Below are positions 7,011-56,962 of a DNA stretch of 64,000 nucleotides, piece by piece. The stretch lies in NCBI RefSeq assembly GCF_024137865.1, contig NZ_CP099960.1, positions 1,302,001 to 1,366,000 of the forward strand, in the 5' to 3' direction. A model generated the notes under the pieces. The model did no database searches, was not told where the DNA came from, and saw nothing but the letters and a program-made list of their open reading frames with translations. The first letter of the stretch is position 1. Each line of letters begins with the position of its first letter. This stretch comes from Moraxella sp. FZFQ2102 (GTDB lineage Bacteria; Pseudomonadota; Gammaproteobacteria; Pseudomonadales; Moraxellaceae). The position numbers and the translations under genes are program-made.

Positions 7011-7084
7011 GAAAATTGAATTTTTTTCAAAAATTTTTGACTTTTAAGCCATTGAAATCATTCAATAAATCCCAAGTCAATGCA

Positions 7085-7615
7085 TTAGCCGCCAACAAGC
7101 ACCATTGCAGGGCGTAGAGTGCGTTCGTTGAGCGTATAGCCTTTTTGGAGCACTTGACCGATAGTGTCTTTTTCGGCATCAGGGAAAATGCCAACAGCTT
7201 CGTGAATATCAGGATTGAAAGCATCACCAACTTGACCGACTGCGACCACGCCATTTTTTTCAAGGACGGTAAGCAGTGATTTGTGGGTCAATTTTAGCCC
7301 TTCAAGGGTGCTGTCATCAGCGCCTGCTTTTTCGCTGGCTTCGATGGCGCGCTCAAGGTTATCGACGACATCGAGTAGTTCTTTGGCGAATTTTTGTAGG
7401 GCGTATTTTTTTGCCTTGTCCGTTTCTTGTTCCATGCGACGCTGGGCGTTGTAGGATTCGGCATTGGCACGCGCGGCGACTTCTTTGGCGTCTTTGACTT
7501 GTGCTTCAAGCTCGCTGATGGTGGCTTTGAGTGTCGCAACTTCGTCAAGCTCGGTCGCTTGCTCGGTGGTTTCTACGCTATCATCCAAGATGTCGTTGTT
7601 GGTTTGCTCGGTCAT
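7085..7615 (-). CDS. grpE: Nucleotide exchange factor GrpE
   Basis: 176 residues. It releases ADP from DnaK. An acidic N-terminus is followed by a long coiled coil (about residues 25-85), then the conserved core VVDNLERAIEA, and the C-terminal beta domain with VGDAFNPDIHEAVGIFP and GYTLNERTLRPAMVLVG. It is transcribed from its own sigma-32-like promoter and is followed by dnaK on the same strand. Confidence 0.96.
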   Translation of the reverse strand: MTEQTNNDILDDSVETTEQATELDEVATLKATISELEAQVKDAKEVAARANAESYNAQRRMEQETDKAKKYALQKFAKELLDVVDNLERAIEASEKAGADDSTLEGLKLTHKSLLTVLEKNGVVAVGQVGDAFNPDIHEAVGIFPDAEKDTIGQVLQKGYTLNERTLRPAMVLVGG

Positions 7616-7657
7616 AATTACCCCAATAAATTAAACATAAAATCAAATCCCTACCTT

Positions 7658-7688
7658 GATAATGGTAAAGGCAGGATTTTTCAAGGGG
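7658..7688 (-). promoter_or_regulatory. Sigma-32-like heat-shock promoter of grpE
   Basis: On the minus strand CCCCTTGAAA (7688-7679), a 13-nt spacer, then CCATTATC (7665-7658). This is a good match to the sigma-32 consensus, about 43 nt upstream of the grpE ATG. Confidence 0.7.
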
Positions 7689-7761
7689 ATGGGGCGATAA
7701 AAGATGAAATTTTTGGCAAAATTATGATGATGTCGGGTAGTTAATCAAGATGAGAAATGCT

Positions 7762-7789
7762 TTGTGTGTCTTTTGATTGGTGCTATACT
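7762..7789 (+). promoter_or_regulatory. Possible sigma-70 promoter of the BrnTA pair
   Basis: TTGTGT, a 16-nt spacer and TATACT at 7784-7789, ending 27 nt before the toxin start. The -10 is good and the -35 moderate. Confidence 0.45.
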
Positions 7790-7816
7790 AGCAATACATA
7801 TGCAAGGTGTCAAAAG

Positions 7817-8116
7817 ATGAGTAAACATTCAGATTTGCAGTTTGATCCCAACAAAAATCGCACAAACCAAGAAAAGCACAATGACATCGATTTTTATGAA
7901 GCTGATACCGTGCTTGATGATCCCTATGCGTTGACCATTGATGATGACGGTGAGCATGATGGCGAGATGCGTTATTTTACCATTGGCATGAGCGCAAAGA
8001 ATCGAGTGCTGATTGTGAATTGGACAATAAGAGATGATGATGTGCGTATCATATCATCAAGATTGGCTGAACCACGACAAAGGAAGCAATATGAAAGTAG
8101 ATGCAAAACTAGATAA
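7817..8116 (+). CDS. brnT: BrnT-family ribonuclease toxin
   Basis: 99 residues. BrnT toxins are RelE-like ribonucleases of type II toxin-antitoxin systems. Visible family features are the N-terminal FDPNKNRTNQEKH, the acidic FYEADTVLDDPYAL segment, the central strand MRYFTIGMSAKNRVLIVNW and the C-terminal VRIISSRLAEPRQRKQYE, where the Arg/Ser-Ala-Arg-like stretch matches the BrnT 'RIISAR.A...E...Y' pattern. The start at 7817 is chosen because it gives the usual length with little leader. The antitoxin start at 8091 lies within its last 26 bp, so translation is probably coupled. Confidence 0.85.
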   Translation: MSKHSDLQFDPNKNRTNQEKHNDIDFYEADTVLDDPYALTIDDDGEHDGEMRYFTIGMSAKNRVLIVNWTIRDDDVRIISSRLAEPRQRKQYESRCKTR

Positions 8117-8318
8117 AAAAATGGCTGAACTGGATTTTGCAAATGCCAAACCTGTTCATGAAGTGCCTGCATTGGCACGCAGACAAGCCAAACAATCTTC
8201 AGCCCAAAGACAGCTTTTGGCAAATGATGTGCAGCAGTGGCTATCGCATCAAGATGATGCCACCATTGACCATATCAATGCGGTGATTCGCCATTTTATG
8301 GCGGTGAAAATGGCATAA
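8091..8318 (+). CDS. BrnA-like antitoxin (diverged)
   Basis: 75 residues, overlapping brnT by 26 bp in another frame, the normal order for BrnT-BrnA. The N-terminal LDFANAKPVHEVPALARRQA matches the toxin-neutralising motif common in BrnT partners. The second half (LLANDVQQWLSHQ then TIDHINAVIRHFM) fits the two helices of a ribbon-helix-helix domain, but the usual basic 'RITIRL' strand is not recognisable (AQRQLLA instead). DNA binding and autoregulation are therefore inferred. Confidence 0.72.
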   Translation: MKVDAKLDKKMAELDFANAKPVHEVPALARRQAKQSSAQRQLLANDVQQWLSHQDDATIDHINAVIRHFMAVKMA

Positions 8319-8331
8319 TTGCTCAAATTTG

Positions 8332-9102
8332 TTAGTCGTTGGGGTGGGCGCCAATAGCACGCCCAATCGCCTGCACGGATAAATCATCAATCATGCTGAT
8401 GGTGGCGGTTGGCTCATGCGTACGGATGATACGGGCGAGTCGCTCGCCTAGTGCCAAATAATGATACGCTGTGCCGTGATGTGGTAGGCTCGCCCAAGCC
8501 TGATATGCCATCTCACTACTGATGATGACATGGGTATGGCTAGGCACAGTGGGCAATGTCGGCAAGATGGCGCTAAAGTTATCAGACAAATCAGGCGGTG
8601 TCGTCCGCTCATACCATTCGATGGCATCGATGTGCACGCCCTTTGCCACTAGCGTGTCGTGCAACAGTCGCCGTCCGCCAACTCCGCGCCAAATCAGCAC
8701 TCGGTCATGCGCTGTCAGACTTGCGATTTGCGGTAGGCTTAGCATCCCTTCGTTGTTGGCGGTCTGTGGCAAGATGACATCAAAGCCATGCGCCTGCATC
8801 ACTTGGGCGGTGGCAGTGCCGACGGCGATGATGGGTGTGTTTGGTAGATGGATGGGTATATCCACCTGATGTGTATGCAGATAGTCCAAGGCTCGCCGTG
8901 CTGACTCGACACTGGTGATGACCAGTGCATCATATCCCCCTTGACAAAACTGCGCCATCATTGCCCGTGCATCATCAGCGATGGGCAGTGAGCGAATCTC
9001 AAGCAATGGCAAATCCACCACCATCACGCCCACCATCTGACGGATGGCATCACCCCGATGGGCAGGGCGGGTGTTGATGAGCACGGGCAAGGTCGTTGGC
9101 AT
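8332..9102 (-). CDS. hemD: Uroporphyrinogen-III synthase
   Basis: 256 residues. It closes hydroxymethylbilane to uroporphyrinogen III in haem synthesis. HemD is poorly conserved, but PVLINTRPAH at the N-terminus, YDALVITSVESARRAL, PIIAVGTATAQVMQAHGFDV, VLIWRGVGGRRLL and HVIISSEMAYQAW form the expected series of strands and loops of its two lobes. The start at 9102 follows the hemC stop (9104-9106) by one nucleotide, so the pair is translationally coupled. A longer in-frame ORF runs back into hemC but has no support. Confidence 0.93.
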   Translation of the reverse strand: MPTTLPVLINTRPAHRGDAIRQMVGVMVVDLPLLEIRSLPIADDARAMMAQFCQGGYDALVITSVESARRALDYLHTHQVDIPIHLPNTPIIAVGTATAQVMQAHGFDVILPQTANNEGMLSLPQIASLTAHDRVLIWRGVGGRRLLHDTLVAKGVHIDAIEWYERTTPPDLSDNFSAILPTLPTVPSHTHVIISSEMAYQAWASLPHHGTAYHYLALGERLARIIRTHEPTATISMIDDLSVQAIGRAIGAHPND

Positions 9103-9103
9103 A

Positions 9104-10069
9104 TTAGGCGTTATCAGCGGATTGATAGACTTCTTGTAAAATCGCATCCGCACCTTGGGCGAGTAGCTCACGGGCGATTTGTTCGCCAAGCGCTTCAACT
9201 GCTGTGATATTGGCAGTCTCATCATCGCCTAGGGTGATGGTGTTTTCGGCTTTTAGTAGCACCTTGCCATCGACAGAGCCGACACGACCACGCAGGCGCA
9301 GTGCTTTACCATCAATGGTGGCAAAGCCTGCAATCGGCACTTGGCAGCCGCCTTCTAGCGTACGATTCATCGCCCGCTCTGCCATCACGCACAGGGCAGT
9401 GGCGGTGTCATTGAGCGGTGCGAGTAGCGATAACATCTCATCATCACTCGCTCGACATTCGATGGCAAGCGCCCCTTGACCCACTGCAGGCAATGACAGC
9501 GATTCATCGAGCTCATGGCGAATACGAGCATCGAGTCCTAGTCGCTGAAGTCCGCTCGTGGCTAGGATAATCGCATCATACTCACCGGCATCGAGCTTGG
9601 CTAGGCGTGTGCCGACATTGCCACGCAGGCTTTTGATGATAAGGTCAGGGCGAGCTTGACGAAGCTGACATTCACGGCGTAGGCTAGATGTGCCAAGCAC
9701 TGCACCACTTGGCAGCTCATCTAGGCTTGCATAGGCGTTTGACACAAAAGCATCGGTCGGTGCATGACGCTTGCAATACGCCCCAAGCGTCAAGCCTTCG
9801 GGCAGTACCATCGGCACATCTTTGAGCGAGTGCACGGCAATATCGGCACGCCCATCGTACAAAGCCTGCTCAAGCTCTTTGACAAATAGACCCTTGCCGC
9901 CAATCTTGGCAAGTGGTGTGTCTAAAATTTTATCACCACGAGTCACCATCTCAAGCAGGGTGACACTCATCTGTGGATACAGACGCTCAAGAGCATCTTT
10001 GATAAAATTGGCTTGCCATAGTGCCAATGGGCTTTGGCGAGTGGCGATGGTGAGTGTGCGAGTGGTCAT
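9104..10069 (-). CDS. hemC: Porphobilinogen deaminase (hydroxymethylbilane synthase)
   Basis: 321 residues. It polymerises four porphobilinogens to hydroxymethylbilane. It starts [20 protein letters not shown]. It has the VHSLKDVP motif with the catalytic Asp, the [12 protein letters not shown] arginine cluster, and the cofactor-attachment cysteine in LEGGCQVPI. The ATG at 10069 is used; the longer open frame to 10336 runs into the divergent argH. It is co-transcribed with hemD, and the hemC/argH divergent arrangement is common in pseudomonads and Acinetobacter. Confidence 0.97.
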
Positions 10070-10220
10070 GGGCTTATCCAAAATTCCAAAAAAATAATCA
10101 ATAACGCTATTATAAAACCTTTGGGATATAAAAGCCATGCCACACACGGATAATTGATGAATGCGATGGCGAAGATGTGTTATACTTTGGCTAATATTTA
10201 AGTCAATCCAAGGATTTATC

Positions 10221-11603
10221 ATGAGTGAACAAACTTCAAGTATGTGGGGCGGTCGTTTTAGTGAAGCGACCGACAGTTTTGTCGCCGAATTTACCGCATC
10301 GGTGAATTTTGACAAACGCATGGCAAAACAAGACATCCAAGGCTCTATCGCTCACGCCACCATGCTTGGTCGCTGTGGCATCATCACTATGGACGAAAGC
10401 CAAATCATCGTCGATGGACTCAAACAAGTCCAAGCTGAGATTGACAGCGGCAGTTTTGCGTGGTCGGTAGCGCTTGAAGATGTGCATATGAATGTCGAGA
10501 GCCGTCTGACTGCCATCGTCGGTGATGTCGGCAAAAAACTACACACAGGCCGCAGCCGTAACGACCAAGTCGCGACCGACATTCGTCTGTGGCTACGCGA
10601 TGAGACTGATAATATCTTGGCACTACTAAAACGCTTGCAGTCAGGACTGCTGGATTTGGCGGAGAAACACACGACCACCATCATGCCCGGTTTCACCCAC
10701 TTGCAGACTGCACAGCCTGTCAGCTTTGGTCATCATGTGATGGCGTGGTTTGAGATGCTGACCCGTGATAGTGAACGCTTTGCCGACACGCGTCGTCGTA
10801 TCAACCAAATGCCACTTGGCAGTGCGGCACTGGCAGGCACGACTTATCCGATTGACCGTACGATTACTGCTGAGCTCTTGGGCTTTGAAGGCATTTGCCA
10901 AAATTCGCTAGACGCTGTCTCTGACCGTGATTTTGCCATTGAATTTACTGCCAATGCCAGTATTCTTATGATGCATTTATCTCGCATGAGCGAAGAGATT
11001 ATCCTATGGATGAGTGCGCAATTTGGCTTTGTGGCGGTGCCTGACCGCTTCTGCACAGGCTCAAGCATTATGCCGCAAAAGAAAAACCCTGATGTGCCTG
11101 AGCTTGTGCGTGGTAAGGCGGCTCGGGTGTTTGGTCAGCTGACTACTTTACTCTCACTCATGAAAAATCAGCCGCTGGCGTACAACAAAGACAACCAAGA
11201 AGACAAAGAGCCACTGTTTGACTGCGTGGATACCTTGACAGGCTCACTGCTTGCCTTTGCTGATATGCTGCCAAATCTGGTGCCAAATAGCGACAATATG
11301 CGTGCAGCCACCATGAAAGGCTATGCCACAGCGACCGATTTGGCGGATTATCTGGTCAAAAAAGGCTTGCCATTCCGTGATGCGCATGAAGTGGTCGGTA
11401 AAGCGGTGGCACTGGGTGTGGCAAAAGGCGTGGATTTAAGTGATCTTAGCCTTGCCGAGCTACAAAGCTTTAGCGACTTAATTCATGATGATGTCTTTGA
11501 GTGCTTGACGCTAGAAGGCTCGCTAAACGCCCGTGATCATATCGGCGGCACAGCGCCAAATCAAGTCAAGGCGGCGATTGCTCGTGGTCGTACGCGTATT
11601 TGA
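10221..11603 (+). CDS. argH: Argininosuccinate lyase
   Basis: 460 residues. It is the last step of arginine synthesis, cleaving argininosuccinate to arginine and fumarate. It has MWGGRF at the N-terminus, SRNDQVATD, the [13 protein letters not shown] segment, and the superfamily signature [12 protein letters not shown] with the flexible catalytic loop. The start at 10221 ([13 protein letters not shown]) has AAGGA upstream; a longer frame from 10161 adds a non-conserved leader. A TATACT box lies at 10181-10186 in the divergent gap. argA is in the same window at 14955-16304. Confidence 0.97.
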
Positions 11604-46804: not shown

Positions 46805-48277
<1,473 letters not shown>

Positions 48278-48309
48278 TTAATGTAATACATTAATTTAAC
48301 TTGAGTTTT

Positions 48310-48346
48310 AAACACCCCAAAAGTTTCAAGCTTTTGGGGTGTTTTT
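48310..48346 (+). terminator. Terminator after lpd
   Basis: AAACACCCCAAAAG / CTTTTGGGGTGTTT, a 14-bp stem with T5. It marks the border between the TCA operon and the WYL-DUF262 cassette. Confidence 0.93.
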
Positions 48347-48398
48347 GTGGCAAAATAACATAAAAATCACGACGGTTGATAACAGGAGTCTCGATCAG

Positions 48399-49379
48399 AT
48401 GGCGAGCACATCACGCAAATCCAATAAGCAAGGGGCGATTTACTTGCTTGAAATACTTAAGAAAATTCCCAAACAGCCCAAAAGCATCAGTTGTGGCGAG
48501 CTGCATTATGCACTGGCAGCACAGGGCTATACACAAAGCTTGCGTACACTACAACGGGATTTACAAGTACTGTGCGATGCGTTTGGGATTATGTGTGATG
48601 ATCGTCAGACACCTTATCGCTATCAGTGGTCGGCGCAGTCTTCTGGAGTGAGCATCTCGCAGATGAATGACCAAGAAGCGTTGCTACTGCAGTTGGCATA
48701 TCAGCATCTGAAGCATTTTTTGCCAAATTCTGCCAAGACATCGCTGGAGTCTCTCTTTGCGCAAGCAGGTTATGAGCTGTATCATCGGAATGCTGGCGAT
48801 GATCATGCCAAGACATGGATGAAAAAGGTGGCGATTGCACCGATGGCTCAGCCGCTATTACCGCCCATCATTTTGCCTGAAGTGCTCGAAGCGGTCAGTG
48901 CGGCATTGTATGACAACCGATATTTGAACATCACTTATGCCAACCAGGCTCAGCGTCGCCACAATTTTTGTAGTGAGTACAGTGTGAAACCGCTAGCGCT
49001 CGTGCAGCAAGGGAGCAATCTGTATTTGGTTGCGCAGTTTGATGGCTTTGATGATATTCGCCATTTGGCACTGCATCGCTGTCAGACGGCATCGGTGTCA
49101 TCATTGACATTTGAGTATCCAAGTGAGTTTGATTTATCGGAGTATATCAATCAGCAGGCGGGGTTTGGCTTTGGGCGAGAGCGGATTTGTCTTGAGTTTT
49201 GTATTGATGAGATCGAAGGATTTCATCTGACTGAGACGCCTTTGTCAGCCGACCAAGTGATACAGGCGCATGACGGCTATTACCATGTCCGTGCCACTGT
49301 GGTGGATAGTGATATGCTTGATCGCTGGCTTAATGGCTTTGGCGAGAGCGTGTGGCAGGTAAAGAAGACGGTGGTGTGA
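48399..49379 (+). CDS. WYL-domain transcriptional regulator
   Basis: 326 residues. Residues about 1-75 form a winged helix-turn-helix (ELHYALAAQGYTQSLRTLQRDLQVL). Residues about 190-255 carry a WYL-type ligand-binding domain (ITYANQAQRR, VKPLALVQQGSNLYLVAQFDG, RHLALHR); the C-terminus fits a WCX extension. This order, wHTH-WYL-WCX, is that of BrxR/CapW regulators of defence loci. The start at 48399 has an AGGAG about 10 nt upstream. The gene's TGA is 4 nt before the palindrome that begins at 49383. Confidence 0.85.
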   Translation: MASTSRKSNKQGAIYLLEILKKIPKQPKSISCGELHYALAAQGYTQSLRTLQRDLQVLCDAFGIMCDDRQTPYRYQWSAQSSGVSISQMNDQEALLLQLAYQHLKHFLPNSAKTSLESLFAQAGYELYHRNAGDDHAKTWMKKVAIAPMAQPLLPPIILPEVLEAVSAALYDNRYLNITYANQAQRRHNFCSEYSVKPLALVQQGSNLYLVAQFDGFDDIRHLALHRCQTASVSSLTFEYPSEFDLSEYINQQAGFGFGRERICLEFCIDEIEGFHLTETPLSADQVIQAHDGYYHVRATVVDSDMLDRWLNGFGESVWQVKKTVV

Positions 49380-49382
49380 TGT

Positions 49383-49425
49383 GCGACATAAATTGTCGCC
49401 ACATGGTGTTATCATGATAAAAAAT
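49383..49425 (+). promoter_or_regulatory. Operator-promoter block before the DUF262 pair
   Basis: A perfect 17-bp palindrome GCGACA-N5-TGTCGC (49383-49399) is followed by ATGGTGTTATCAT. A possible -10 TATCAT has its -35 position inside the palindrome; another reading is TTGTCG-17-GATAAA. Either way a bound protein would block the promoter. A second, similar block is at 52859-52892. The best candidate binder is the WYL protein encoded immediately upstream. Confidence 0.7.
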
Positions 49426-49439
49426 AGCAGGAGAGTGTT

Positions 49440-50777
49440 ATGAGCAAGACAGACTCAGACCCAAAATTGGGTGTCTATAAGATCAATGAAGTGTATAAAA
49501 AAGATCTATCCATCCCTAATTATCAGCGGCCGTATAAGTGGCGTGTGGAGAATGTACGCCAGCTGCTTGATGACCTAAATCATCATTGTATCAATCAACC
49601 AAACAGCACCTATCGTCTGGGTACTTTAGTGATTCACAAAGATAAAGATAAATGTGATATCGTTGATGGTCAGCAGCGCTTGGTGACTTTGGCGTTGATT
49701 TTGCATCGTTTGAAAGATACAAGCATTGATGCATTTTTGAAAAAAGATCAATTCGCCCACCCATTCAGCCAATACAATATCTACCATAATTATCAACTGA
49801 TTGGGCGGTATCTGGATATGTTGGATGGCGGCAGCCGGCAGCGATTGCTGAAGTTTATCGACGAGCAGTGTGAGTTTGTGTGGATTGAGCTGACCAATCA
49901 AAATGAAGCGTTTCAGTTTTTTGATTCACAAAATGCTCGTGGCAAAAGTCTTGCGCCGTATGATTTGCTCAAAGCGTATCATCTGCGAGCCATCCCATCC
50001 GATCACCCAAATAAGCTTGACTATGTCATGCGCTGGGAGCGGGCTATTGATGGTAAGCCAAGCTTAGATCAAGTCATTAGCAAGACATTGTTTTGCTTGC
50101 GTCAGTGGTCAAAATCTCGTCGGGCAGATGAGTTTACGGTCAAACAGCTGTCTGTGTTTAAAGGTGTGACGCTTGATGCGCCTTATCCCTATCTCAATGC
50201 TGTGCGTGCCAATTTGGCATTATACCAAGAGCATCAAGCAAATCCATGGCGTATGGTACAGCCACCACCCTCACCGTTTCAGACCACGCAGCCATTGATT
50301 GATGGTGAGTTGTTTTTTATGTATATTGACCATTATGTGCAAATGTATCATCGGTTGTTTGATAAAGATCAAGGTGTGTTAAATGGCTATTTTTTTAACC
50401 TATGGTGCATCAAAGACAAAAAGCAAATCAGCTATTTGGGTGCGATGGATTATGATGGTTCGCATCGTACAGGCGATGGCTATTTGCGCATCTTATTTTA
50501 TGCGATGGTATTGATGTATTATGATAAATTTGCGACACATGGCTTGGATGTGGCGTTATCGCGGATTTTTAATTGGGTGTTTCGAGAGCGTCTAGACAAA
50601 GAACGAATTGATTGGGGTACGATTGAAAAAATCGTCGCTGAGCGTGATGGTTTGTTTGATGTTTTGTTGCACGCCATCCATCCTAAACAAATTGCCAATT
50701 TTATCGTGATGCCTTTATCTAAGAGTAATGGCAAATCCGTTCAGTTGGCAGAGTATCTATCAGTACCAAAGCCGTGA
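49440..50777 (+). CDS. DUF262 (ParB/Srx-like NTPase) protein, first of pair
   Basis: 445 residues. The DUF262 N-domain has IPNYQRPYKW (residues 25-34) and the catalytic-type DGQQR (76-80), as in GmrS and related nuclease partners; the family fold is ParB-like and binds or cleaves nucleotides. The central helical part has NQNEAFQFFDSQNARGKSLAPYDLLKAY, the conserved second DUF262 block. No HNH/DUF1524 motif is visible in the C-terminal half, so nuclease function, if any, must come from the next gene. The ATG at 49440 is preceded by CAGGAG. It ends 17 nt before the next gene. Confidence 0.85.
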   Translation: MSKTDSDPKLGVYKINEVYKKDLSIPNYQRPYKWRVENVRQLLDDLNHHCINQPNSTYRLGTLVIHKDKDKCDIVDGQQRLVTLALILHRLKDTSIDAFLKKDQFAHPFSQYNIYHNYQLIGRYLDMLDGGSRQRLLKFIDEQCEFVWIELTNQNEAFQFFDSQNARGKSLAPYDLLKAYHLRAIPSDHPNKLDYVMRWERAIDGKPSLDQVISKTLFCLRQWSKSRRADEFTVKQLSVFKGVTLDAPYPYLNAVRANLALYQEHQANPWRMVQPPPSPFQTTQPLIDGELFFMYIDHYVQMYHRLFDKDQGVLNGYFFNLWCIKDKKQISYLGAMDYDGSHRTGDGYLRILFYAMVLMYYDKFATHGLDVALSRIFNWVFRERLDKERIDWGTIEKIVAERDGLFDVLLHAIHPKQIANFIVMPLSKSNGKSVQLAEYLSVPKP

Positions 50778-50794
50778 TTATAAGAGGAAAAGTC

Positions 50795-52819
50795 ATGAGT
50801 GAAGCAGTCAAATTATTAACCATCGAGCAGCTATTAAGCCAAGAAGATCACTATCTGATCCCCGTTTATCAGCGCAACTATGCATGGGGCGGTGTTGAGA
50901 TTGGGCAATTGGTTCAGGATTTGTATAAAGCGTTTGAGCAGGATAAGGACAAGGCTTATTATCTCGGTACTTTAGTGGTGCATCACCGAGCTGATGGCAG
51001 GTATGAAGTCATTGATGGTCAGCAGCGATTGACGACTTTGCATATTTTAAACAAATGTTTATCAAAGTTTGATGGCGGTCTTACATTGAGTGAAATTCAA
51101 TGGGATGCAGAACAAACCAACCTTGACTTTGAATCTCGTCCAGAGTCCAAAGCACAAATTGATAATCCAGCGGTGGCGATAAAAGCCGATAGCGGTATCG
51201 CTGATGGCTTTGTAGCAATGTGGCAGGCATTGATCAATCTTAAAAATTTAGAAGATGCAAATTTGAAAGATCGCGAATTAATTGATCAATTTAAAGAATT
51301 TATCAATAAGCAAGTAAAAATCTGTCGTACCATCGTACCCAAAGATACGGATCTGAACCATTATTTTGAAATCATGAACACGCGCGGCGAACAGCTTGAA
51401 AAGCATGAAATCATCAAGGCGCAGTTGATGGGTAAATTAGACCCAAAAGACCAAAAAGCGTTTGCGATGATTTGGGATGCCTGCTCGGATATGAGCCGCT
51501 TTGCGGTATCGGGCTTGCCGACAGTCATACGAGCAGAATTTTTTGTGGATCAATTACCCTGTCGCCTAGAGCAGGATTTTGACTTGGGCAAGTTTAAGAA
51601 TTTGTTGATTGACAAAAAAGCAGAAGGATTAAAGGATAAAGAGCTTGAAGAAAGAAAAGCTGAAACCAAGCAAGATCTTGAAGCAGGCAATTTAGTGGGC
51701 AAGTCGATCATTAAGATCATCGATGACCCAATCAAAAACCCCAAAGATGTGGATAATACCGATGATGGCCAATACCAATCGGTGATTGATTTTCCAAACT
51801 TTTTATTGCATGTGCTAAAAGTGCGAGAAACTGACGAAGAAAAAAAAGAAAAAATCAGCTTGGATGATAAGTCTTTGCTGACAGCATTTGAATCTTTGAA
51901 GGATGCAGATGCGGTTAAGCGATTTGCGATGGATTTGTTAAAATGCCGTTTGTTGTTTGATTATTATGTGATCAAGCAGGACAACCGCAAGGCAAATGAT
52001 GGCACGGATGTCAAGTGGGCGATCTTACAGCCCAAGCTAAGTAATAATAGTATCTATGCCAAAAATACTTTTCAAACCGACAAGGAGGAGTCTGAATCTA
52101 ATGAGCATCTGGTGATGGTGCAGGCGATGTTTCATGTGTCGCACTCAAGTCGTATTTATAAAACTTGGCTACAAGATGTTTTGGCGTATTTGTGGAAGAA
52201 TCGTACTCAGACTAAAGATAAAGATTTTGATAAGAAGTTTCTCGATGAACTGCATCGTTTGGCACATGACGACTATTACCAAAAACAGCGGGACAAGCTA
52301 AACTATCCTAATGTGTCTTATTTTATGCTTAATTATGTTGATTATCGTTTGTGGTATGAGTGGAAACAGGAATGGAAACAGGCTGGGCAGGATGAAAACG
52401 AAAGAGTTAAATTTTTTGAAAAATACGCACCAAATCAAAACTCCAGTGCCGAAGAGCTAAAAAAGGCTTTTGATAAATTTGTCTTTATGCATCGTTCATC
52501 GATTGAGCATTGCTATCCACGCAATCCAGAAGATCAATCCAATCGAAAAACAGGTGATGATTTAATAGCGCTGAATCAATTGGGCAATCTGTGTTTGGTG
52601 AGCCATAGTGAAAACTCGCGGCTATCCAATCTGCTACCTGAAGCCAAACGAGAAAAGGTCATCGCACGGCTCAATAGTGGGCGTAGCACCCAAAGTCTAA
52701 GTCAGCTGATCATGCTGATGCATGAAAAATGGGATATAAGTGCGATTGATAGTTATACAGACAAATTAGAAAAACTTGATCAAAAAATCAAATTGAACCC
52801 ATTGCTCAATAATAAATAA
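50795..52819 (+). CDS. DUF262-DUF1524 (HNH nuclease) protein, second of pair
   Basis: 674 residues. N-terminal DUF262 with IPVYQRNYAW (residues 22-31), VIDGQQR (72-78) and the second block YFEIMNTRGEQLEKHEIIKA. A lysine/glutamate-rich coiled-coil insert lies near residues 265-310. The C-terminal DUF1524 has the HNH-type motif IEHCYPR (His572), LGNLCLV (Asn598) and SENSRLSN (Asn607), so a DNA-cutting role is likely. This GmrSD-like fusion makes a two-gene unit with the preceding DUF262 protein. The start at 50795 follows AAGAGGA. Confidence 0.88.
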   Translation: MSEAVKLLTIEQLLSQEDHYLIPVYQRNYAWGGVEIGQLVQDLYKAFEQDKDKAYYLGTLVVHHRADGRYEVIDGQQRLTTLHILNKCLSKFDGGLTLSEIQWDAEQTNLDFESRPESKAQIDNPAVAIKADSGIADGFVAMWQALINLKNLEDANLKDRELIDQFKEFINKQVKICRTIVPKDTDLNHYFEIMNTRGEQLEKHEIIKAQLMGKLDPKDQKAFAMIWDACSDMSRFAVSGLPTVIRAEFFVDQLPCRLEQDFDLGKFKNLLIDKKAEGLKDKELEERKAETKQDLEAGNLVGKSIIKIIDDPIKNPKDVDNTDDGQYQSVIDFPNFLLHVLKVRETDEEKKEKISLDDKSLLTAFESLKDADAVKRFAMDLLKCRLLFDYYVIKQDNRKANDGTDVKWAILQPKLSNNSIYAKNTFQTDKEESESNEHLVMVQAMFHVSHSSRIYKTWLQDVLAYLWKNRTQTKDKDFDKKFLDELHRLAHDDYYQKQRDKLNYPNVSYFMLNYVDYRLWYEWKQEWKQAGQDENERVKFFEKYAPNQNSSAEELKKAFDKFVFMHRSSIEHCYPRNPEDQSNRKTGDDLIALNQLGNLCLVSHSENSRLSNLLPEAKREKVIARLNSGRSTQSLSQLIMLMHEKWDISAIDSYTDKLEKLDQKIKLNPLLNNK

Positions 52820-52842
52820 CCGCCATTGTGCGGTTATTTTTT
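52815..52842 (+). terminator. Terminator after the DUF262-DUF1524 gene
   Basis: AATAACCGC / GCGGTTATT stem with a short loop and T6. Confidence 0.85.
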
Positions 52843-52858
52843 ATGCACTCTCCTGTAT

Positions 52859-52892
52859 GCGACACAAAATGTCGCACTATGTTGTTATACTG
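52859..52892 (+). promoter_or_regulatory. Second copy of the operator-promoter block, no gene follows
   Basis: A perfect palindrome GCGACA-N5-TGTCGC (52859-52875) followed by ACTATGTTGTTATACTG. The block matches the one at 49383 at roughly five of six positions over 35 nt, including the TGTTAT segment, and offers TATACT as a -10. The next ORF on this strand starts about 530 nt downstream. Confidence 0.65.
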
Positions 52893-53424
52893 CCCTCAGT
52901 GCCTAGTAAAAAAGTGATTGTCTCACCAATAGCAAGTCTGCGCTTAATATGATCAGCATGTGCGATCTTGATGAAAAAACTTCATCTGTTGCAGCTGATT
53001 GGGTTTGTGATGTGAGCCAAAGGTAGCGATACGCTATTAAGCGTGGTTGTTATTTATAAGATTTACCTATAAATTACAGCGCATTTCAGGCATGAGATAT
53101 TAATAAACTGATGCTCTGATTATACAGATATTCCGACATATTTATCAGAAAAAACATAGAATTAACCAAAGTATGATGGCTAAAACTTTAGACAAGGGCT
53201 GATTTATAAGTTATTTTTCTGATAATAGTGAAAATATCTGAAATAGTGACAGGTGGTGCCGATGGGTGTTTTTTTTATTCCAAAATTGCATAAAAATTAT
53301 AATGATTTTTTAAGAAATTGGCTTTTACTTTAGACCAAATTATGGTTTAATTTAGTAAATTTAGAAACAATTAGCAGTAATTGGCAACAATTTTTATACA
53401 TATCAGCTTCAATAGGATTTTGTG
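52893..53424. other. Gene-free AT-rich region before the autotransporter
   Basis: About 530 nt with no convincing ORF. It holds a 12-bp inverted repeat TTATCAGAAAAA (53142-53153) / TTTTTCTGATAA (53214-53225), a T8 run at 53279-53286, and a likely promoter TTTACT-16-TTTAAT (53324-53351) about 75 nt before the autotransporter ATG. The T8 tract could allow slippage affecting expression, but it is short. Confidence 0.55.
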
Positions 53425-56400
53425 ATGAATAAAGTATTTAAAGTGGTGTTCAATCGAACGACTCAACAATGGACAGTGACATCTGAGCTGGCTCGTGGTG
53501 CGGTCAAATCATCAAGCAGTGAAGTCAAAAAACCATCTTTAATAAAGGCGGTGAGTACGGCTACACTGGCGATGGTGGTGGCGTCTGCATCGGTGACTGC
53601 GGTGGCTTTTGATGATCTTGAGCTTGATTTTGAAATGACGGATGAGCAGTATCATAAAAATGTCGCCGCTCAGACAACGCCTACTGCGCCAAACACGACG
53701 CCTTCGCACACCGTTGAGATCGATGGTACTGTGCTGCCGCCAGCAACCAGTCCGACGCCTGTGCATGAAGTTGTGATCGATGGTGAGGTCTTGGCACCTG
53801 CACCAAAAACCGAACCGATGCCAAGCACACCTGTGACACCACCGACTTCTGGGCATAATGTGACGATCGATGCTGATCCAAATGAAGTGACAAATCCGAC
53901 GCCAAACACGATGCTTGCGACGGTGGCTTATGTCGATGCACAAAATCAAGCGCAGGATGCAGCGATCGCAACCAAGGCTGATCAAGTTACGCTGGATGCG
54001 CTGAATGAAAAAGTCAGTCAAATGGATAAGGGCAAAGCAACCAAGCAATCGGTAGGTGCTGCGACAAAAAGTATCAGTGAAATTAAGACCCAATTAACCA
54101 CCTTGTCTGAACAAGTGGATGCCAAAGCAGATGCCACAACTGTCACCACATTGGCAGAAAAAGTAGATACCAAAGCAAGCAAAGATGAAGTATCAGCAGC
54201 ACTAACTCAAGCGGCTTCACATGCAGAAGGTTATGCGGATCGTAAAGATGCTGTTATCAAAACACTTGCAGATGCCGCTCAAACTACTGCTAATAAAGCA
54301 CAACAAACTGCTGATGCAAACACTCAAGCAATTGCAACCAAAGCAGATGCTACCACTGTCACCACATTGGCAGAAAAAGTAGACACCAAAGCAAGCAAAG
54401 ATGAAGTATCAGCAGCACTAACTCAAGCGGCTTCACATGCAGAAGGTTATGCGGATCGTAAAGATGCTGTTATCAAAACACTTGCAGATGCCGCTCAAAC
54501 TACTGCTAATAAAGCACAACAAACTGCTGATGCAAACACTCAAGCAATTGCCACTAAAGCAGATGTTACCACCGTCACTGCTTTGTCTGACAAGGTAAAC
54601 ACTAAGGCAGACACTGAAACTGTTAATGCTTTATCTACAAAAGTAGACACCAAAGCAAGCAAAGATGAAGTATCAGCAGCACTGACTCAAGTGGCTTCAC
54701 ATGCAGAAGGTTATGCGGATCGTCAAGATGCCGTTATCAAAGCACTGGCAGATGCCGCTCAAACTACTGCTAATAAAGCACAACAAACTGCTGATGCAAA
54801 CACTCGAGCAATTGCCACTAAAGCAGATGTTACCACCGTCACTGCTTTGTCTGACAAGGTAAACACCAAAGCAGACACTGAAACTGTTAATGCTTTATCT
54901 ACAAAAGTAGACACCAAAGCTGACATCAGCTATGTCGATGCTCAAAACCAAGCGCAAGATGCTGTCATTGCCACCAAAGCAGATGCCACAACTGTGACCA
55001 CATTGGCTGACAAAGTAGAATCTAATACTCAAGCAATTGCCACCAAAGCAGATGCCACAACTGTCACTGCTTTATCTACAAAAGTAGATACCAAAGCCGA
55101 TCAATCAGCTTTGAATGAACTTAGCCAAACTGTTGCTACCAAAGCAGATGCTACAACTGTCACTGCTTTGACAGAAACTGTGAACACTAAAGCTGACATC
55201 AGCTATGTCGATGCTCAAAACCAAGCGCAAGATGCTGTCATTGCTACCAAAGCAGATGCTATAACTGTTAATGCTTTATCTACAAAAGTAGACAGCAAAG
55301 CAAGCAAAGATGAAGTATCAGCGGCACTAACTCAAGTGGCTTCACACGCAGAAGGTTATGCGGATCGTGTTGTTCGTGATATGAAAGTGGATATTGACAA
55401 GGCTCAATCGGCTGCTGAAACTGCAGCAACAGCCGCCAAAGCTTCACAAGATGCGGCAGCTACTTCTGCGAACACTGCCAACACTTCAGCTGCCAATGCT
55501 GCTCAATCAGCGACAACTGCTGCAGAACAAGCCAAAACTGCAACTGCAGCCCAGGCTGCAGCTACCCAGTCTGCAAGCGATGCTCAAAACTCAGCCACTG
55601 CCGCACAGCAAGCACAAACTGCTGCCACTGTATCTGCGACAAAAGCAGCTGATTCAGCCCAAACTGCCCAAGTCGCTCAAGTTAAAGCAGTCGAACAAGC
55701 GGCCGCTGCTGAAAAATCAGCAACCGCTGCAACCGGCGCGCAAATCGCCGCCGCAACTTCAGCTGATAAAGCCCAGATCGCTCAATCGGCTGCTGAAACT
55801 GCAGCAACAGCCGCCAAAGCTTCACAAGATGCGGCAGCTACTTCTGCGAACACTGCCAACACTTCAGCTGCCAATGCTGCTCAATCAGCGACAACTGCTG
55901 CAGAACAAGCCAAAACTGCAACTGCAGCCCAGGCTGCAGCTACCCAGTCTGCAAGCGATGCTCAAAACTCAGCCACTGCCGCACAGCAAGCACAAACTGC
56001 TGCCACTGAGCAAGCTGCCGCTGCCAAAGCGTCACAACAAGACGCATCTGCATCGGCCGCCATTGCCACCGAACAGGCAAGCATCGCCCAAACTGCCGCA
56101 ACCGTTGCCACCGACTCAGCGCAGCAAGCCAAAATCTTGGTGGCAGACGCCCAACAACTGACCAGCGAAGTACGCACCACCGCAGCCAATGCAGAGCAGC
56201 TGGCCAATCAGGCGAATACCACCGCAGCCAGCGCTTTGGCCATCGCTGAAAATAAAGCCGATGCCGGTGTGGTGGCAGCTCTGGGTCAGCAGGTGGCTGC
56301 ACACGGCACAGCGATCGAGACACTAAATACCCAAACGCTGCAACACACTCAAGCCATCAGCCGCTTGGATACCCAAGTCGGTGCGCTTGACAACAAAGTC

Positions 56401-56667
56401 ACCGCACTGTCTGGCAGAATGGATGTGCTAGAAAAAGACTTTGAAAGCGGCATGGCGGCGAACGCAGCATTGAGCGGTCTGTTCCAACCTTATGGCATCG
56501 GCAGATTTAACGCAACTGCAGCGATCGGCGGCTATCAGTCACAGCAGGCCGTCGCCGTCGGCGCAGGCTACCGCTTTAATCAAAACTTTGCTACCAAAAT
56601 GGGTGTTGCCACCAGCACCAATGGTGGCGGTACAGCCTATAATGTCGGCGTTAATTTTGAATGGTAA
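53425..56667 (+). CDS. Trimeric autotransporter adhesin with ESPR and YadA-like anchor
   Basis: 1080 residues, type Vc secretion. Residues 1-24 (MNKVFKVVFNRTTQQWTVTS start) are the extended signal peptide region, then a hydrophobic signal near 37-58. A Pro/Thr-rich segment with three VxIDG.V-like repeats spans about 90-160. Residues about 165-1000 are coiled-coil stalk made of degenerate 'ATKAD..TV..L' units with exact internal duplications. Residues about 1003-1080 are the YadA-like membrane anchor (GLFQPYGIGRF to VGVNFEW). No YadA-type head or 'SVAIG' repeats are visible. Probably an adhesin, as UspA/Hag-type proteins are in Moraxella. ATG 53425 is used; the adjacent GTG 53422 is not needed. 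Confidence 0.9.
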   Translation: MNKVFKVVFNRTTQQWTVTSELARGAVKSSSSEVKKPSLIKAVSTATLAMVVASASVTAVAFDDLELDFEMTDEQYHKNVAAQTTPTAPNTTPSHTVEIDGTVLPPATSPTPVHEVVIDGEVLAPAPKTEPMPSTPVTPPTSGHNVTIDADPNEVTNPTPNTMLATVAYVDAQNQAQDAAIATKADQVTLDALNEKVSQMDKGKATKQSVGAATKSISEIKTQLTTLSEQVDAKADATTVTTLAEKVDTKASKDEVSAALTQAASHAEGYADRKDAVIKTLADAAQTTANKAQQTADANTQAIATKADATTVTTLAEKVDTKASKDEVSAALTQAASHAEGYADRKDAVIKTLADAAQTTANKAQQTADANTQAIATKADVTTVTALSDKVNTKADTETVNALSTKVDTKASKDEVSAALTQVASHAEGYADRQDAVIKALADAAQTTANKAQQTADANTRAIATKADVTTVTALSDKVNTKADTETVNALSTKVDTKADISYVDAQNQAQDAVIATKADATTVTTLADKVESNTQAIATKADATTVTALSTKVDTKADQSALNELSQTVATKADATTVTALTETVNTKADISYVDAQNQAQDAVIATKADAITVNALSTKVDSKASKDEVSAALTQVASHAEGYADRVVRDMKVDIDKAQSAAETAATAAKASQDAAATSANTANTSAANAAQSATTAAEQAKTATAAQAAATQSASDAQNSATAAQQAQTAATVSATKAADSAQTAQVAQVKAVEQAAAAEKSATAATGAQIAAATSADKAQIAQSAAETAATAAKASQDAAATSANTANTSAANAAQSATTAAEQAKTATAAQAAATQSASDAQNSATAAQQAQTAATEQAAAAKASQQDASASAAIATEQASIAQTAATVATDSAQQAKILVADAQQLTSEVRTTAANAEQLANQANTTAASALAIAENKADAGVVAALGQQVAAHGTAIETLNTQTLQHTQAISRLDTQVGALDNKVTALSGRMDVLEKDFESGMAANAALSGLFQPYGIGRFNATAAIGGYQSQQAVAVGAGYRFNQNFATKMGVATSTNGGGTAYNVGVNFEW
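54130..54777 (+). repeat. Tandem 216-bp repeats in the autotransporter stalk
   Basis: Units start at 54130, 54346 and 54562 (216 bp = 72 residues each). The first two are nearly identical; the third has changes and an inserted short unit. The same pattern recurs in fragments to about 55370. Confidence 0.85.
55402..55629 (+). repeat. Ala/Gln-rich 228-bp block, first copy
   Basis: Reading by eye, the 228 bp appear identical to 55780-56007 (378 bp downstream). The encoded Ala-rich coiled coil lies at residues about 660-735. Confidence 0.85.
55780..56007 (+). repeat. Ala/Gln-rich 228-bp block, second copy
   Basis: Direct repeat of 55402-55629. Identity at DNA level, including synonymous positions, points to a recent duplication or gene conversion within the stalk. 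Confidence 0.85.
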
Positions 56668-56680
56668 TTCGCCATCATCA

Positions 56681-56713
56681 AAAAAACCGAGCCATCATCA
56701 GCTCGGTTTTTTT
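56681..56713. terminator. Terminator between the autotransporter and yheV
   Basis: AAAAAACCGAGC / GCTCGGTTTTTT, symmetrical, between convergent genes. Confidence 0.92.
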
Positions 56714-56728
56714 ATTTATAAATACTTA

Positions 56729-56962
56729 TTATTTAAACTTCACCACACCCACGCCATCGGCTTTGGCATTTTGTTCTTGGATGATGGTGGTCTCATCAGG
56801 GGTGGGGCGGCGTTCGCTATGACCACAGTCGATGCACTCGATGTATTCATCAAACTGTGGGGTGAATACCTGAATCTGCACGACGACATCGACTTTTTTG
56901 CACGATGGGCAAGCGACGCCAGCCAAGAACTGGCGTTTTGGGCGATTGGATTGATAACGCAT
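56729..56962 (-). CDS. yheV: YheV-family zinc-ribbon protein
   Basis: 77 residues. MRYQSNRPKRQFLAGVACP at the N-terminus with two Cys pairs (CPSC and CIDC) spaced as in a zinc ribbon, followed by GHSERR. Matches the YheV/DUF2387 family of unknown function. It starts about 10 nt after the prlC stop, a linkage seen in pseudomonads. ATG 56962 is used in preference to the GTG just before it. Confidence 0.82.
   Translation of the reverse strand: MRYQSNRPKRQFLAGVACPSCKKVDVVVQIQVFTPQFDEYIECIDCGHSERRPTPDETTIIQEQNAKADGVGVVKFK

Follow-up and report, generated by a model that had tools for sequence, protein, structure and literature searches.

A TgvAB-type pair of DUF262 genes in Moraxella, probably controlled by a DriD-like WYL activator through operator-promoters of fixed architecture

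The window considered here is a stretch of 64,000 nucleotides (G000:C1:1302001-1366000) from the 2.34-Mb single-contig genome of Moraxella sp. FZFQ2102 (denoted G000), and its subject is a cassette of three genes on the plus strand, i.e., a WYL regulator followed by two DUF262 genes, A and B. An earlier reading made from the letters alone (the sequence-only reading) had proposed a winged helix-turn-helix (wHTH)-WYL regulator, a stand-alone DUF262 protein and a DUF262-DUF1524 protein on one strand, and all three were found by Pfam. The regulator (48399-49379, 326 aa) was assigned wHTH-WYL-WCX architecture and, by profile and structure model, a likeness to DriD; the WYL match was significant (7e-10), while the WCX match fell below the cut-off (19.7 vs 23.9), which is a caveat on that architecture. 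Its start was placed at the ATG at 48399 and its stop at 49379, since the listed open reading frame (ORF) from a GTG at 48339 begins within the lpd terminator. Gene A (49440-50777, plus strand) encodes a 445 aa protein of TgvA-like layout, with Pfam matches to GmrSD_N (DUF262; 2e-29) and DUF7834 (2e-51) and no Pfam match to DUF1524. Gene B (50795-52819, plus strand) encodes a 674 aa protein of TgvB-like layout, matching GmrSD_N (5e-32) and GmrSD_C (DUF1524, His-Me/HNH; 3e-10). The DGQQR motif, at residues 76-80 of A (49665-49679), was invariant in both alignments (15 A and 15 B proteins). The predicted interval of 17 nt between the A stop and the B ATG at 50795 was correct, as were the HNH-type residues of the His-Me motif in B (52508-52615); H572 (52508-52510), N598 (52586-52588) and N607 (52613-52615) were each invariant in 15/15 aligned B proteins.

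A and B have the organization of a two-protein GmrSD-family system: the genes are adjacent, both products begin with a DUF262 domain, and the DUF1524 His-Me domain occurs in B alone. This layout is already known from TgvAB and GrwAB, type IV restriction systems made of two proteins, and the sequence-only reading, which had recognised no named system here, is superseded for the A-B part by their two published descriptions (PMC11411939, PMC12137116). There, both proteins of TgvAB from V. cholerae were needed, a change at H571 or N602 of TgvB abolished anti-phage activity, and tgvAB gave 1,341 hits in 41,142 genomes (PMC11411939); GrwAB is the second two-protein case, again with both proteins needed (PMC12137116), and both systems were tested against phages with hypermodified bases (PMC11411939, PMC12137116).

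The two DUF262 genes were found together elsewhere, an outcome on which the sequence-only reading had staked itself. Ten genome loci besides the window and its sister locus gave a strong A match; B adjoined A in nine of them (L124, L144-L147 and L149-L152), the tenth (L148) stopping at a contig end, and the two genes were also adjacent in all four plasmid records first opened. The plasmid-borne pairs had type I restriction-modification (R-M) genes as neighbours in the Vibrio aerogenes and E. coli records, R-M-like and AbpA genes in Citrobacter and plasmid genes in Klebsiella; defence genes, of type I R-M or another kind, thus lie alongside the pair in three of the four records, Klebsiella being the exception. 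A tblastn search (E ≤ 1e-5) of 72,556 plasmid records found relatives of A in 1,014 and of B in 1,067 (872 and 865, respectively, at a query coverage of 80% or more), including 913 and 912 Klebsiella records; these counts are per protein rather than per pair, and both queries match DUF262 proteins in general. Matches to A (E ≤ 1e-10) occurred in 16 of 145 related genomes, some of them being weak matches to other DUF262 proteins.

The structure model of A (mean pLDDT 79, pTM 0.77) was nearest to SspE and DndI, and more weakly to BrxU, while DUF262 profiles likewise find solved relatives that include SspE and DndI. These resemblances could indicate that the pair senses another feature of DNA (e.g., phosphorothioate, as SspE and DndI do) or plasmids, instead of modified-base phage DNA. 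However, the profile matches to SspE and DndI lay mainly within the common DUF262 domain, and the two-protein layout and domains fit TgvAB and GrwAB, with their hypermodified-base phages; a different DNA target was considered unlikely. A and B most likely cooperate in defence, one with and one without the His-Me nuclease motifs. That part of the 'two-effector nuclease system' originally proposed is supported, while the idea of a conserved three-gene cassette is not, as described below.

Interpretation of the cassette was altered by two palindromes that the sequence-only reading had missed. Operator O1, TGCGACATAAATTGTCGC (49382-49399, plus strand), spans the -35 position of P1, the promoter of A and B, in which a TG-extended -10 hexamer, TATCAT (49410-49415), lies exactly 10 nt past the operator. 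Operator O2, TGCGACACAAAATGTCGC (52858-52875, plus strand), is an orphan 3' of B, and is likewise followed after exactly 10 nt by a TG-extended -10 hexamer, TATACT (52886-52891; P2). A genome scan found the exact pattern TGCGACA-N5-TGTCGC at two places in the 2.34 Mb, O1 and O2; a palindrome with an N4 spacer had no place at the cassette, and N5 is right. The -35 positions of P1 and P2 fall inside the operators and match TTGACA at 2/6 positions in each case. No operator copy with ≤2 mismatches was seen before the WYL gene, where other palindromes were not searched for.

Of the named relatives, the closest is a metagenome-assembled genome of an uncultured Moraxella (the sister genome, G007), whose A protein is 90% identical and whose corresponding locus (L005) carries an AAA+ ATPase gene as the fourth gene of the cassette, preceded by an 18-mer identical to O2. 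This ATPase has tandem AAA domains like VCP and matched PADLOC IetA models at 1.5e-38; it had no match in G000 at E ≤ 1e-30. The blastn match between the window and L005 ends at 52894, 3 nt past the -10 hexamer of P2, and resumes at 56730, near an M3 peptidase gene. The interval (52895-56729) is occupied in the window by a YadA-type autotransporter segment (gene at 53422-56667), at the position of the AAA+ ATPase and lipoprotein genes in the sister (L005 11445-14514), and a search of window positions 52701-53700 turned up no trace of the AAA gene. Because the sister match breaks at this point and G000 lacks the ATPase, the window thus appears to keep P2 as the orphan promoter of an AAA+ ATPase gene. 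P2 now points toward the YadA-type autotransporter ORF, the next listed ORF, approximately 560 nt downstream.

Among solved WYL regulators, the protein appears closest to DriD, judging by operator core, promoter geometry, sequence profile and Foldseek. Its alignment profile matched DriD (8e-16) and PafBC (3e-13) in the PDB ahead of CapW (6e-5) and BrxR (3e-4), and Foldseek with the structure model gave 4.5e-14 for DriD and 4.7e-8 for BrxR. Profile matches to TAL-effector structures were dismissed as an artefact, being sums of many weak repeat matches. R49 and R53 of the predicted helix-turn-helix were invariant in 23/23 WYL relatives, which is compatible with guanine contacts, although not proof of them. 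In a preprint, DriD is described as a WYL protein that activates transcription in response to single-stranded DNA (ssDNA), without self-regulation; its consensus site, ATACGAC-N7-GTCGTAT, overlaps a poor -35 and keeps a constant distance to the -10, and the targets named there are didA, bapE, recJ, dnaG and CCNA_03891/01149 (PMC12340889).

The sequence-only reading had drawn its analogy with BrxR and CapW, which now comes second. If the protein were a repressor of that type, it would sit on the -35 region and be released by ssDNA, so derepressing A and B. Yet both the profile and Foldseek place DriD and PafBC above BrxR and CapW, and the operator has the core of DriD's, which the Acinetobacter BrxR probe lacks. 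The promoters also appear dependent on activation, because their -35 matches are poor: across 21 scored promoters (13 from other genomes, described below, and eight from G000 and its sister), the best -35 matched at 1-3 of 6 positions, with a mean of 1.86 against 2.41 for random sequence. The lack of a copy of this operator before the WYL gene would point the same way, although inverted repeats before the regulator's own gene or operon are reported for only 193 of 347 BrxR homologues. CapW and BrxR repressors likewise respond to ssDNA (PMC13373217), and so both modes would predict induction by ssDNA; of the two, activation has the better support, and repression was considered doubtful. The absence of other folds from the VIA lists was given no weight. 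Two structural caveats apply to the assignment to DriD, namely that VIA-align scores for DriD and for BrxR/CapW were nearly tied, and that the inter-domain geometry of the WYL model is uncertain (pTM 0.46).

The same combination of operator and promoter was evident in other families. Sites were sought between -300 and +30 of estimated start codons, using 14 fixed positions, with ORFs of at least 200 aa from the same loci as controls (overlapping frames included). Sites with ≤1 mismatch lay near 14 of 71 WYL relatives (p ~1.6e-8) and 8 of 23 AAA relatives (p ~9e-8), the sister's AAA gene included, compared with 18 of 827 other ORFs. Among A genes, 1/21 had such a site, rising to 3/21 at ≤2 mismatches (the window, the sister and a second pair in G000; p = 0.055 vs control). 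For 25 sites outside G000 and G007, a -10-like hexamer occurred at offset 9 in six cases and at offset 10 in seven, while no other offset in the range 0-25 had more than one; this was equalled in 0/5000 shuffles. The 25 sites, which include sites with two mismatches, were taken from 34 site rows, after leaving out nine: those of G000 and G007 (L080, L050, L051 and L124), near-copies (L118, L166 and L176) and two rows of L093 that represent the L128 site. Two sets of apparently related loci, L081/L083 and L054/L059/L060, were retained. It is the 13 of these 25 sites with a -10-like hexamer that contributed to the -35 scores given above.

To locate places with the full arrangement, a composite pattern was defined as CGACA-N5-TGTCG-N11-TATNNT. 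With no mismatches, it occurred at three places in G000 (2.3 Mb), three in G007 and three in a further genome, G125; across all 145 genomes there were 19 such places (the remaining 10 in nine other genomes), against three for the reversed pattern. Of the 12 genomes that have a composite site, eight carry a WYL gene, as do 46 of the 133 that have none (p = 0.03). Once the two discovery genomes were removed, the proportion was 6/10 (p = 0.10). Loosened patterns did not exceed the reversed control in G000, either with three mismatches (110 + 86 vs 139 + 140) or with two (10 + 6 vs 12 + 12), the two-mismatch counts for G007 being 11 + 12 vs 7 + 7; therefore, only exact places were used, plus places with one mismatch beside meaningful genes.

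The third exact place in G000 (G000:C1:652378; L009 1567-2076) precedes a gene for a 169 aa OGFr_N protein, and the homologous gene in the sister (L204 916-1467, minus strand) has the same type of promoter. OGFr_N is the conserved region of the opioid growth factor receptor, and here a bacterial protein of this family stands under the operator-promoter in both Moraxella genomes. G000 also possesses a second DUF262 pair (G000:C1:2241034-2245187; L124 ~7035-11190), in which A is intact and B is split by an IS1595-type transposase ORF. Operator-promoters with one mismatch were found before this second A gene and before the PP2C_2 gene behind the second B; the operator-like site after that B lies 64 nt 5' of the PP2C_2 phosphatase ORF. 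Two more places with one mismatch were at 267908 and 2298072. The exact composites of G000 and G007, together with promoters P4 and P5, lay 56-65 nt before a start codon, with the exception of P2 in the window. In G125, the distances from the three composites to the next ORF were 48 nt (the AAA ORF), 56 nt (a 203 aa ORF) and 200 nt (a third ORF); the 203 aa ORF (L229, site 3109635, minus strand) has a signal-peptide-like start. No consistent downstream gene was seen at the composite places in the nine other genomes.

Conservation of the pairing with a WYL gene, which the sequence-only reading had put forward as a check, did not hold. WYL matches (E ≤ 1e-10) were present in 54 of the 145 relatives, with just one match in G000, but WYL and A were adjacent in G000 and G007 alone, these being the only genomes of the genus with a WYL match. 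Similarly, a scan of the order (390 genomes, E ≤ 1e-30) gave A relatives in five genomes and WYL relatives in 27, with G000 alone having both. A conserved three-gene system of WYL, A and B was rejected on this basis. The regulator and the pair do occur on one island in three Enterobacteriaceae plasmids, ~8-13 kb apart, and ~19 kb apart on a Paraburkholderia replicon; in the two of these replicons that were read, no operator with ≤1 mismatch preceded the pair. WYL and AAA genes were found within a few kb of one another on Pantoea, Rhodoferax, Diaphorobacter and Sphaerotilus plasmids and in genomes G023, G114 and G125. A tandem-AAA+ ATPase of ~700 aa lies a few kb from a WYL gene of this clade at L115, L117, L120, L122, L125, L126 and L129; these loci are accessory regions, where helicases, DUF2779 proteins or BREX-2 are its neighbours.

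The restriction of the adjacent WYL-A-B arrangement to two sister genomes raises the question of whether the regulator is an unrelated neighbour, with A and B expressed constitutively or otherwise regulated, and the palindromes belonging to another regulator or acting as terminator-like hairpins. O1 and O2 are indeed able to fold into hairpins. Conversely, there is no T-run after O1, the palindrome and its spacing to the -10 mark WYL and AAA genes in the loci of other families, and a start codon follows at 48-65 nt from the sites in G000 and G007 (P2 excepted) and from two of the three sites in G125. That the WYL gene has nothing to do with the pair is very improbable.

The cassette lies downstream of genes that we take, from our own reading of the ORFs, to be sucA-sucB-lpd. 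Its upstream border is the lpd terminator hairpin (48310-48344, plus strand; -22.3 kcal/mol for the fold of 48300-48350), and a terminator-like hairpin follows B (52814-52839, plus strand; -14.2 kcal/mol for the fold of 52808-52845). The bounding terminators of the sequence-only reading therefore do fold as hairpins, although neither was listed by a simple terminator scan of 47900-53600. The lpd gene is present in 19 of 22 genomes of the genus, and the region after it was opened in 15 of these 19 besides the known G000 and G007; in G016 and G018 lpd is at a contig end, and the stretches L239 and L246 are cut short by contig ends. The site is empty in G012 (L235), where the lipoprotein and M3-peptidase genes come immediately after lpd. 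The other post-lpd sites among L235-L249 hold differing genes, several of them capsule-export-like or adhesin-like judging by the ORF starts, without a family search. Since the site is variable in the genus and empty in G012, the cassette has the appearance of an insertion. The sequence CAGGAGAGTG occurs immediately 5' of A (49428-49437), with an inverted copy, CACTCTCCTG, immediately 5' of O2 (52846-52855); the inverted copy is missing before O2 in the sister.

Taken together, the evidence was interpreted as a type IV restriction cassette of the two-protein TgvAB kind, controlled by a WYL activator that resembles DriD and acts also in trans, a reading to which a probability of roughly 0.62 was assigned. 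The operator, its spacing and the relatedness of the proteins are observed as sequence architecture, and from these, restriction and activation are inferred to proceed as follows. The DUF262 NTPase/sensor domains of A and B would together recognise modified phage DNA, which the His-Me domain of B would cut, by analogy with TgvAB and GrwAB. A WYL dimer would bind TGCGACA-N5-TGTCGC over the -35 position; with ssDNA from phage replication, restriction or damage bound to its WYL domains, it would recruit RNA polymerase to promoters that have a fixed -10 and lack a good -35. Its predicted targets in trans are the OGFr_N gene, the second, insertion sequence-interrupted DUF262 pair and the PP2C-phosphatase gene, and, in the sister, the tandem-AAA+ ATPase gene also. 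A wider proposal is offered tentatively, as possible but less assured than the cassette itself: that a single DriD-like, ssDNA-sensing activator runs a dispersed, SOS-independent regulon (two DUF262 pairs, the PP2C operon and OGFr_N, plus the AAA+ ATPase in the sister) from promoters of fixed architecture, and that the same code marks WYL-AAA modules, plasmid-borne as well as chromosomal, in other proteobacterial families.

To our knowledge, the control of two-protein type IV restriction systems has been little studied. If the cassette reading is true, an activator triggered by ssDNA would allow infection, or the damage done by first-line restriction, to induce the enzyme. Because the operator-promoter signature is precise (three exact places in 2.3 Mb), it predicts targets in trans, and it points to the OGFr_N protein, the PP2C gene and the tandem AAA+ ATPase, a frequent neighbour of WYL genes of this clade, as candidate defence genes; if true, the code could be used to find defence genes that have gone unrecognised. 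The open-access literature that was searched yielded neither a WYL regulator with a TgvAB-type pair nor a TGCGACA-N5-TGTCGC operator, subscription papers and bioRxiv preprints being largely outside this coverage.

Comparison with known systems separates the enzyme from its control. Like TgvAB, the cassette has adjacent DUF262 and DUF262-DUF1524 genes in that order, with DGQQR in both and His-Me in the second; relative to the type I R-M-linked pair of Vibrio aerogenes, which served as a stand-in for TgvAB, A was 38% and B 36% identical. It differs in having no adjoining type I R-M genes, but an adjacent WYL gene and operators, and the word WYL is absent from the TgvAB paper (PMC11411939). GrwAB of WASA Vibrio cholerae also comprises two DUF262 proteins, both required and one with DUF1524, but its nuclease gene comes first and GrwB has an extended, multi-domain C-terminus; the main text of that paper (PMC12137116) does not contain the word WYL. 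With DriD of Caulobacter crescentus the regulator shares wHTH-WYL-WCX architecture and an identical operator core, GAC-N7-GTC. Both sites also cover a poor -35 and keep a constant distance to the -10 (the constancy alone being compared, not its value); DriD is without self-regulation, and here no copy of this operator precedes the WYL gene. There are two differences: the outer half-site bases are TGC/GCA here and ATA/TAT there, and the targets predicted here are restriction pairs and AAA+ ATPase, PP2C and OGFr_N genes. CapW, the CBASS repressor, is also a WYL protein beside a defence operon that binds a palindrome and senses ssDNA; however, its sequence relation is weaker and its sites overlap the -10, whereas the palindrome here is on the -35 position. 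In regulation, the nearest precedent is the pEFER BREX island of Escherichia fergusonii, which has two operator boxes, includes the GmrSD-family enzyme BrxU and is controlled by the WYL regulator BrxR; there, however, the enzyme consists of one protein, and the regulator is a repressor belonging to the BREX operon. The enzyme in the window is thus of a known kind, and the novelty lies in its predicted regulation.

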